In this document: positions 3,509 through 5,322 of the stretch, piece after piece | How the letters are laid out: each line of letters starts with the position of its first letter | How positions within the stretch are numbered: position 1 is the first letter of the stretch | From: Deltaproteobacteria bacterium RBG_13_61_14 | Lineage (GTDB): Bacteria; RBG-13-61-14 | Direction of reading: 5' to 3' | Assembly (NCBI GenBank): GCA_001797815.1 | Contig: MGQK01000099.1 | Coordinates: 20,565 to 25,886, forward strand | Length of the DNA stretch: 5,322 bases | Notes under the pieces: generated by a model | Seen by the model: only the letters and a program-made list of their open reading frames with translations | What the model was told of the DNA's origin: nothing | Databases searched by the model: none | Translations under genes and position numbers: made by a program

Positions 3509-4252
3509 TTAGATCTTGAAACCGCGCAACTGCAAAAGGGCCGGGTAAGAGGTCGTGTCCAGTTGCAGGGGAGTGATGGAAATGTGGCCCTGATCCACGG
3601 CCACGATGTCGCTGTCCTCGATCGGCTCGCCGCTGGCGCTGTCGCCGCCCAGGACAAAGCCGGGCTGGCCGTTGGGCTTTAGGATTTCTTCGATCTTCTT
3701 GGAGTAGATCCGCCGGCCCTGGCGGGTGATGCGGAAGGGCTTGATCTCGGCCGGCGGCAGGTCCGGCAGGTTGACGTTGAGGAAGGTGGGCGGCTGGATC
3801 TTCCTCGCCAGCACCTGCCGGGCCAGCTTGACCGCGAACTCGGCCGCCGGCTGGAAATTGGGATGGCTGTTCCAGCTATTGAGCGAAATGGCAAAGGCGG
3901 GAAATCCGAGGAGCGCGGCCTCCCGGGCCCCGGCCACGGTGCCGGAGTAGATGATGTCGCAGCCGAGGTTGGCGCCATGGTTGATGCCGGAGATGACCAG
4001 GTCGGGCTTGAAGTCGAGCAGCTTGAGCACGGCCAGGTGCACGCAGTCCACCGGCGTGCCCTCGATGGCCCAGCGCCTTTTCCCCAGCTCCCGAAGCCCG
4101 ATCGGCTTGCGCAAGGTCACGGAATGGCTGGTGGCGCTCCGCTCCTGGTCCGGGGCCGCGACCGCGATCTCGGCTTGGCCGGCAAAGGCCTGCACTAAGG
4201 TCGCGAGCCCCGGGGCCTCGATGCCGTCGTCGTTGGTGATCAGAATTTTCAT
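3509..4252 (-). CDS. surE: 5'/3'-nucleotidase SurE
   Basis: SurE is a divalent-metal-dependent phosphatase acting on nucleoside 5'- and 3'-monophosphates, and in some species on short polyphosphate; it is linked to stationary-phase survival. The 247 residues are a normal length. Hallmarks are MKILITNDDGI at the very start with metal-binding D8 and D9, PDQERSATSHSVTL (34-47) containing S39, GTPVDCVHLAV (65-75), DLVISGINHGANLG (84-97) with metal-ligand candidates N91 and N95, IIYSGTVAGAREA (100-112), and FLNVNLPDLP. The start at 4252 is preferred because the family begins with MKIL. An in-frame TTG at 4261 would precede the predicted transcription start. It is the first gene of the surE-pcm-LOG-like-M23-apt operon. 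The mRNA leader is predicted to be only about 6 nt, so initiation may be leaderless. Confidence 0.97.
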   Translation of the reverse strand: MKILITNDDGIEAPGLATLVQAFAGQAEIAVAAPDQERSATSHSVTLRKPIGLRELGKRRWAIEGTPVDCVHLAVLKLLDFKPDLVISGINHGANLGCDIIYSGTVAGAREAALLGFPAFAISLNSWNSHPNFQPAAEFAVKLARQVLARKIQPPTFLNVNLPDLPPAEIKPFRITRQGRRIYSKKIEEILKPNGQPGFVLGGDSASGEPIEDSDIVAVDQGHISITPLQLDTTSYPALLQLRGFKI

Positions 4253-4264
4253 AAAGTTCAATCT

Positions 4265-4293
4265 ATTTTATCCGCCTCCCGGAAGATCGTCAA
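4265..4293 (-). promoter_or_regulatory. Sigma70-type promoter of the surE operon
   Basis: The minus strand reads TTGACG (-35, 4288-4293), exactly 17 bp, then TAAAAT (-10, 4265-4270). Both boxes differ from consensus at one position. Transcription would start near 4258, leaving about 6 nt before the surE ATG. The GGGAGG in the spacer looks like a ribosome site but lies upstream of the predicted transcript start. Confidence 0.72.
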
Positions 4294-4296
4294 GGT

Positions 4297-4306
4297 GGCG
4301 CGCGCC
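4297..4306. repeat. Perfect 10-bp palindrome GGCGCGCGCC
   Basis: This self-complementary 10-mer lies 4 bp upstream of the surE -35 box and overlaps the left end of the larger inverted repeat. It could be an operator half or simply part of the palindromic element. No further evidence separates these. Confidence 0.4.
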
Positions 4307-4342
4307 TTTGCCCTCCCTCAGTTTTCCGGGAACCGGGGGTAG

Positions 4343-4362
4343 GGGCGCGATTTATCGCGCCC
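4343..4362. repeat. Inner hairpin 1, 9-bp arms with a 2-nt loop
   Basis: GGGCGCGAT (4343-4351), TT, ATCGCGCCC (4354-4362). The stem is perfect. It shares the pattern GGCGCRAT-NN-ATYGCGCC with the second inner hairpin. Confidence 0.75.
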
Positions 4363-4374
4363 TGGCAGGGACTG

Positions 4375-4392
4375 GGCGCAATGAATTGCGCC
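4375..4392. repeat. Inner hairpin 2, 8-bp arms with a 2-nt loop
   Basis: GGCGCAAT (4375-4382), GA, ATTGCGCC (4385-4392). The stem is perfect. The G/A and C/T differences from hairpin 1 are compensatory, so pairing is preserved while the sequence differs. Confidence 0.75.
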
Positions 4393-4463
4393 ACTACGAA
4401 GGCCGAAAATATGCGGTGCGGACAAAAACTGAGGGAGGGCAAGGGCTCGTGCCGGAAGAGACC

Positions 4464-4523: not shown

Positions 4524-5322
4524 ATGGCGGGAAAGGCACCGGGCGAGCGGCTGGGCGACATTCTGATCCGCAAAGGGCTGATTACCCCGGATCAGCTCGA
4601 CCAGGCCGTGCAATGCCAAGTGATCTTCGGCGGCCGGCTGGGCACCAACCTGCTCGAGCTCGGCCACCTGCGGGAAGATGAGCTCAACGAGATCCTGGCC
4701 CAGAAATGCCAGGTGCCGGCGGTGCGCAAGGAGGAGTTGGAGGACGTTCCGCCGAGGGTTATTCAACTGGTCTCGCGGGAAATGGCCGGCCGCTACCTGG
4801 CCGTGCCGGTGCGGCTGGTAGGATCGAACCTCTACACCGCCATGCTCGACCCCAACGACTCCGCCGCGGTGAAATTGCTGGTTTCCGCCACCGGCAAGGC
4901 GATCCAGCCCGGCATGGCCTTGGAGGTTTACCTGCGCTGGGCCCTGGACCGCTACTACGGGATCAAGCGGGAAGCCCGCTTCATCAACCTTGAGCGCACC
5001 CTGGCCCTGCGGCAAGAGATCGAAGCCGACCCGGCCCGCCGCGCCGCCTTACGCACGCCGGTTAAGCCCCTGGGCCCGGGCGATACTTTCTGGGCCGGCA
5101 GCCAGACCATTCCTTTCCTGCCGATGGAGCCCCTGCTGCCGGATCCCCAGAGCATCACCGCCATGGAAGGCGCGCCCAAGTCGCTCGACGATTTCTGGGA
5201 ACGGGTCGGCCGCACCTCTCATCCTCACCACTCGTTGCCTCGGGTCTTCCGCCAACTGCAAGAAGCCAAAGACCGCGACCAGATCGCCCAGATCATCCTC
5301 GACCTCGGCCAGCGGGTCTTGC
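4524..5322 (+). CDS. MshEN (T2SSE_N) domain protein, 3'-incomplete, probably c-di-GMP-responsive
   Basis: The first 266 residues of a protein that runs off the right edge. Residues 8-147 form an MshEN/T2SSE N-terminal domain: first repeat R9-L-G ... G18 ... Q32, a 5-residue spacer, second repeat R38-L-G ... G47 ... K61, then a half ending in RYYG. MshEN domains with two 24-residue RLGxxLxxxG motifs 5 residues apart bind c-di-GMP; here the last Gln of the second motif is Lys. After a Pro-rich linker (about 180-230) a second domain begins near SLPRVFRQLQEAKDRDQIAQIILDLGQRVL. I see no (A)SDIHIEP-type N2 segment in the 119 residues after the first domain, so it is probably not a GspE/PilB ATPase. 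It resembles myxobacterial-type MshEN regulators with a GAF-like C-terminus (weak inference). TAG at 4515 bounds the start, and no ribosome site is evident. Confidence 0.82.
   Translation, partial: MAGKAPGERLGDILIRKGLITPDQLDQAVQCQVIFGGRLGTNLLELGHLREDELNEILAQKCQVPAVRKEELEDVPPRVIQLVSREMAGRYLAVPVRLVGSNLYTAMLDPNDSAAVKLLVSATGKAIQPGMALEVYLRWALDRYYGIKREARFINLERTLALRQEIEADPARRAALRTPVKPLGPGDTFWAGSQTIPFLPMEPLLPDPQSITAMEGAPKSLDDFWERVGRTSHPHHSLPRVFRQLQEAKDRDQIAQIILDLGQRVL

Follow-up and report, generated by a model that had tools for sequence, protein, structure and literature searches.

A transposase-less element beside the surE promoter of a deltaproteobacterium belongs to a MITE family that appears to insert at a fixed distance upstream of sigma70 promoters

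The window, that is, the whole stretch of 5,322 nucleotides that was analysed from Deltaproteobacteria bacterium RBG_13_61_14, carries the surE gene and, facing away from it, a gene encoding an MshEN domain. Between the two lies a palindromic element that adjoins the surE promoter. The features referred to below are as follows.

3509..4252, minus strand: surE, the gene of the apparently targeted promoter (Pfam PF01975, E 1.8e-64)
4265..4270, minus strand: -10 box of the surE promoter, TAAAAT, after a 17-bp spacer
4288..4293, minus strand: -35 box of the surE promoter, TTGACG; CTTGAC begins 2 bp past the duplication
4297..4306, no strand: promoter-proximal copy of the target-site duplication, GGCGCGCGCC, which matches the distal copy at 8 of 10 positions
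4307..4443, plus strand: MITE, 137 bp, one of a family with about 40 members in the genome; its ends follow from the terminal repeats together with the 10-bp duplications
4307..4325, plus strand: left terminal inverted repeat TTTGCCCTCCCTCAGTTTT (consensus CTTGCCCWCCCYCAKTTTT), 19 bp
4343..4362, no strand: inner hairpin 1, GGGCGCGAT-TT-ATCGCGCCC, stem invariant in 21 aligned copies
4375..4392, no strand: inner hairpin 2, GGCGCAAT-GA-ATTGCGCC, stem invariant in 21 aligned copies
4425..4443, minus strand: right terminal inverted repeat, read on the minus strand as CTTGCCCTCCCTCAGTTTT, 19 bp
4444..4453, no strand: target-site duplication, distal copy GGCTCGTGCC, 8/10 identical to the promoter-proximal copy
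4524..5321, plus strand: divergent gene with an MshEN domain on the other side of the element, continuing past the window (Pfam PF05157, E 4.3e-13)

The outer inverted repeat (4297-4325 and 4425-4453) was 90% complementary over 29 nt with a perfect core of 18 bp; this core and the two hairpins nested within it were present as an earlier sequence-only reading had described them. That reading placed the element at 4304-4446. The palindrome was real, but the true element spans 4307-4443, a 137-bp unit that starts with TTTGCCCTCCCTCAGTTTT and closes with the inverted copy AAAACTGAGGGAGGGCAAG. Complementarity beyond these ends (4297-4306 and 4444-4453) belongs to the 10-bp target duplication, which is by chance partly palindromic.

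A search of the organism's own genome (4.74 Mb, 132 contigs) recovered about 40 dispersed copies (at least 40 scored places, E below 1e-20), which were 75-100% identical, mostly full length, 135-149 bp long and present in both orientations; a search by terminal repeat added copies interrupted by contig ends. The possibility of a single-copy chance palindrome was thereby refuted. Among the 37 two-ended copies, the flanks matched in 26-31 at each of the 10 duplication positions, and the match dropped towards background immediately outside them (3-14 of 37). The duplication was retained at all 10 positions in 16 of the 37, and no mismatched flank pairing, used as a control, got as far as 8/10. 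The sequence-only reading had proposed a mobile, MITE-like repeat, and this was borne out: the palindrome is a non-autonomous transposable element, being short, dispersed in many copies and lacking a transposase gene, with terminal inverted repeats and a duplication of constant 10-bp length. Autonomous partners with the same ends were found in other genomes (at L119, L204, L205 and L167, described below).

The earlier remark that the element adjoins the -35 box of surE was correct and proved to be the key observation, as the spacing was fixed across copies and genomes. Reading outwards from the ends, 21 of the 41 copies in the own genome had exact TTGAC at offset 13, past the 10-bp duplication, two further bases and a C. 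At every other offset the word occurred in 0-2 copies (one at offset 14, none at 12, 15 or 16). Given an intergenic TTGAC rate of 0.0014, estimated from 400 kb of stretches of the same genome, the binomial P for offset 13 was about 1e-41. The reverse word GTCAA gave no offset peak among these copies. TTG stood at offset 13 in 32 of the 41 copies, with the consensus CTTGACA and never on both sides of one copy, leaving nine without a recognisable -35 box at this position. In one copy (L014) with a perfect 10-bp duplication and no -35 box at the usual offset, TTGAC lay 20 and 27 bp out, on either side.

An ORF of at least 100 aa in the same direction followed within 350 bp in 31 of the 32 targeted promoters, and insertions had either orientation towards the promoter (22 versus 10). 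That so many of these promoters face a gene would also be accommodated by a MITE with loose target choice whose harmful insertions elsewhere were lost and whose insertions upstream of promoters remained, since purifying selection too would leave mainly intergenic copies. Selection alone, however, would give a broad range of distances to the -35 box, yet the observed distribution was one base position wide, and the same spacing recurred in unrelated genomes. Loose choice is largely contradicted by this fixed spacing, and we regard it as highly improbable.

A logo built from copies regardless of any -10 box showed such a box 17 bp beyond the -35 box, with T and A in its first two positions and T in the sixth. 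TAnnnT at a spacing of 16-18 bp was found at 19 of 28 targets; the corresponding figure for ordinary CTTGAC-like sites upstream of genes, in a 400-kb sample of this genome, was 17 of 113 (odds ratio 12, p 1e-7). Enrichment beyond the level of such sites speaks for a mechanism that recognises the promoter itself. It bears on a simpler model, in which a short DNA word is all that the transposase reads and no promoter is recognised: CTTGAC resembles the element's own terminal CTTGCC (5/6), so that CTTG(A/C)C is present in both target and ends, and most of the information in the target lay in TTG and the preceding C, with CTTGCC and CTTGCG among the accepted variants. The -10 enrichment could moreover reflect where such words survive insertion. 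Against the model stand the -10 box at promoter spacing, which other CTTGAC-like sites upstream of genes mostly lacked, and the acceptance of ATTGAC and GTTGAC. The likeness between target and end keeps plain sequence recognition alive, and the CTTGAC word alone, without RNA polymerase, could be what is recognised; we nevertheless consider this model unlikely, if a serious contender.

At surE itself the promoter reads CTTGACG-17-TAAAAT, and the ATG follows 12 bp downstream of the -10 box. In two members of the same order, a surE promoter occupies the corresponding position and no element is present: TTGACG-17-TATCAT in G001, and in G002 a CTTGCG -35 box, a 16-bp spacer and a TAAAAT -10 box (TAAAATAGAT). 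Since both relatives have the promoter without the element, the surE promoter is ancestral and was not imported with the insertion. Only DNA farther out than about -47 has been replaced by the element, with the core promoter untouched, so the effect of the insertion on surE is, judging from the sequence, probably mild.

Folding of the element gave z = -9.4 on the plus strand and -7.7 on the minus strand, and none of 200 shuffled sequences folded equally well. A strong fold on both strands, the invariance of the inner hairpins among copies and the position between divergent genes are what would be expected of a structured RNA or regulatory cruciform that is kept for its effect on surE and the divergent neighbour. 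When 21 copies were folded as an alignment, however, paired changes were confined to the terminal repeats and the inner stems did not vary (covariation term, -0.46 kcal/mol). The base differences between the two inner hairpins, previously called compensatory, are therefore not covariation, both hairpins being invariant among copies. Such invariance among MITE copies is no evidence for an RNA, and paired changes in the terminal repeats are what a transposase would enforce. An Rfam search of the element matched no family; the sole match, to a human lncRNA model below threshold, was put down to chance. With about 40 dispersed copies bearing target duplications, in either orientation relative to promoters, and with a surE promoter in the same position in two order-mates that have no element, the structured-RNA idea of the sequence-only reading was not upheld, and we give a retained RNA or cruciform very little credence. 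The statement in that reading that the element is not a terminator is reasonable.

The same ends were sought elsewhere by scanning 84,980 species genomes with the terminal repeat CTTGCCCWCCCYCAKTTTT alone, which yielded 79 stretches, some of them chance matches. MITEs with these ends but other lengths (158, 191, 192, 206 and about 325 bp) occurred in Deltaproteobacteria, Acidobacteria, Nitrospinota, Troglogloeales, Tectomicrobia and other groups. Among 83 unselected ends, TTGAC stood at exactly offset 13 in 18 and within 1 bp of it in 22, across 15 genomes, while farther offsets had at most two each. A search for the MITE in 59 relatives matched only the inner hairpin motif, in three distant genomes, and a search of Nitrospinota returned the known copy in G062 alone.

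The terminal repeats flanked IS4-family transposases at L119, L204, L205 and L167 (a remnant), and further ends and fragments were found. The transposase at L119, in an Acidobacteria genome, was intact (399 aa), and that at L167 was broken. The linked transposases matched PF01609 (E 2.6e-14) and no other family, and in them Y278, R281, E285 and K292, which make up the IS4-type signature Y(2)R(3)E(6)K, were invariant. The best curated NCBIfam IS4 equivalog, NF033591, scored 136 bits, below its cut-off of 152. By these matches, the linked transposases are IS4 relatives that fall outside the curated equivalog models. The duplication was 10 bp in the MITEs; the complete insertion sequences had no clean duplication to measure. 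Because the terminal repeats are shared and the length of the duplication fits that of IS4 elements, we infer that an IS4 transposase mobilises the MITEs.

A small ORF of the DUF6788 family stood beside the transposase at seven loci: L167 (5515-5826), L205 (1463-1798), L119 (about 2540-2880), L204, L203, L209 and L206. The encoded protein is a candidate accessory or target-choice factor. An IS4-type relative in another genome (L202, in G138, 1319-2294) had, ahead of its transposase gene where DUF6788 would be expected, a different kind of ORF encoding 325 aa.

About eight transposase-bearing ends were examined for a promoter, and only those at L205, L167 and L188 lay at one; L188 seems to have accessory-gene sequence in common. 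The complete element at L205 was 11 bp from CTTGACA-17-TAATAT, the ORF downstream of which we take, from our reading of its sequence, to be rnpA-like. Either flank of L167 had a -35 box at offset 13. L167 was rejected as a single intact element on account of mismatching flanks, when read as a duplication, and the broken transposase; two fused insertions may account for it. The transposase-bearing ends at L119, L204, L209 and L203 were not at a promoter.

No transposase with these ends was found in the organism's own genome. Its PF01609 transposases (L093, L094 and L095) were rejected as the source, having no matching terminal repeats, and the source transposase may have been lost or may be unassembled. 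Searches of 386 relatives, 395 Nitrospirota genomes, plasmids and viral contigs yielded no autonomous element; the larger of these searches considered the best four candidates per genome, so that copies can be missed.

Copy number, repeats, the 10-bp duplication, the fixed distance to the -35 box, the -10 spacing and recurrence in unrelated genomes can all be read directly from the sequences. The explanation that best accommodates them, and which on this footing is very probably correct, is that a MITE of an IS4-type group inserts at sigma70 promoters at a fixed 12 bp upstream of CTTGAC. This pattern points to an IS4-type transposon able to recognise either the machinery that starts transcription or the promoter sequence it uses. 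The terminal repeats would belong to a distinct IS4-family group whose full-length members combine a DDE/YREK transposase with a small DUF6788 protein. The transposition complex would select a sigma70 promoter as its target and make a staggered 10-bp cut with the near edge 2 bp upstream of CTTGAC; insertion there would therefore place the element 12 bp ahead of CTTGAC without disturbing the core promoter. The transposase or DUF6788 would recognise either the promoter DNA or RNA polymerase bound there. The likely benefit would be dispersal that spares genes and leaves promoters working.

Guerillot et al. 2014 (PMC3942029) described insertion 13-17 bp upstream of sigmaA promoters for TnGBS/ISLre2 elements and some members of the ISKra4 group; that study called promoter targeting unusual, ascribed it to a transposase motif and suggested contact with RNA polymerase. 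The present elements resemble these in the fixed distance upstream of the -35 box of a sigmaA/sigma70 promoter, in their near-symmetric inverted repeats and in their insertion in both orientations. They differ in having a 10-bp duplication and a 12-bp distance, and the element in the window is a MITE. The transposases of TnGBS/ISLre2/ISKra4 are p-MULT enzymes (IS256 superfamily, Mutator-like), whereas the linked transposase here is of the IS4 family (PF01609, YREK). In function, then, the present elements are like TnGBS/ISLre2/ISKra4 without being members, their transposase family being another. We tentatively propose, at somewhat less than even confidence, that this IS4-family group evolved promoter-guided transposition independently of Mutator-like elements, and that DUF6788 (or the transposase) is a target selector docking on promoter-bound RNA polymerase or sigma region 4.

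The present elements share with the IS4 family, as characterised in PMC2266710, a DDE transposase bearing Y(2)R(3)E(6)K, and the 10-bp duplication of the MITEs agrees with the length of about 10 bp given there. According to the same source, their 5'-CTTGCCC ends misfit the end consensus (5'-CA..) of IS231, ISH8 and IS4Sa, and the extra DUF6788 ORF departs from the single-ORF transposases given there as an IS4 hallmark. Promoters are nowhere mentioned in its text. Strong target-arm conservation in some IS4-subgroup elements and in ISRm22 is mentioned there, through which part of the promoter-targeting pattern may have been glimpsed before. Likeness to bacterial MITEs in general lies in the short, transposase-less form, inverted repeats, target duplications and many copies. 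Most bacterial MITEs are not known for fixed-distance promoter choice. Within the openly searchable literature, neither IS4-family elements nor MITEs were found described as targeting promoters.

If the interpretation holds, there would be two unrelated transposase families that find bacterial promoters with base-pair precision, the new one in several phyla, and how a transposase sees a promoter would become testable by comparison. Each insertion would mark a sigma70 promoter and so provide a natural annotation tool for unculturable organisms. DUF6788, a family of unknown function, would gain its first concrete hypothesis.

Three minor observations concern the make-up of repeats in this and other genomes. 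The left end of one copy (L005) had a partly duplicated terminal repeat. At another locus (L060, G000:C130), a lone terminal repeat lay near a different hairpin repeat, GGTAGGGGCGGTTCGCTAACCGCCCCTACC, which represents another small repeat family in the genome. The inner hairpin words GTAGGGGCGCGATTTATCGCGCCC and GGGCGCAATGAATTGCGCCCCTAC (window 4343-4392) were repeated in the distant genomes G041, G033 and G056 (L063-L082), where the remainder of the MITE was unmatched; these words may be an older, separate repeat family that was captured by the MITE.
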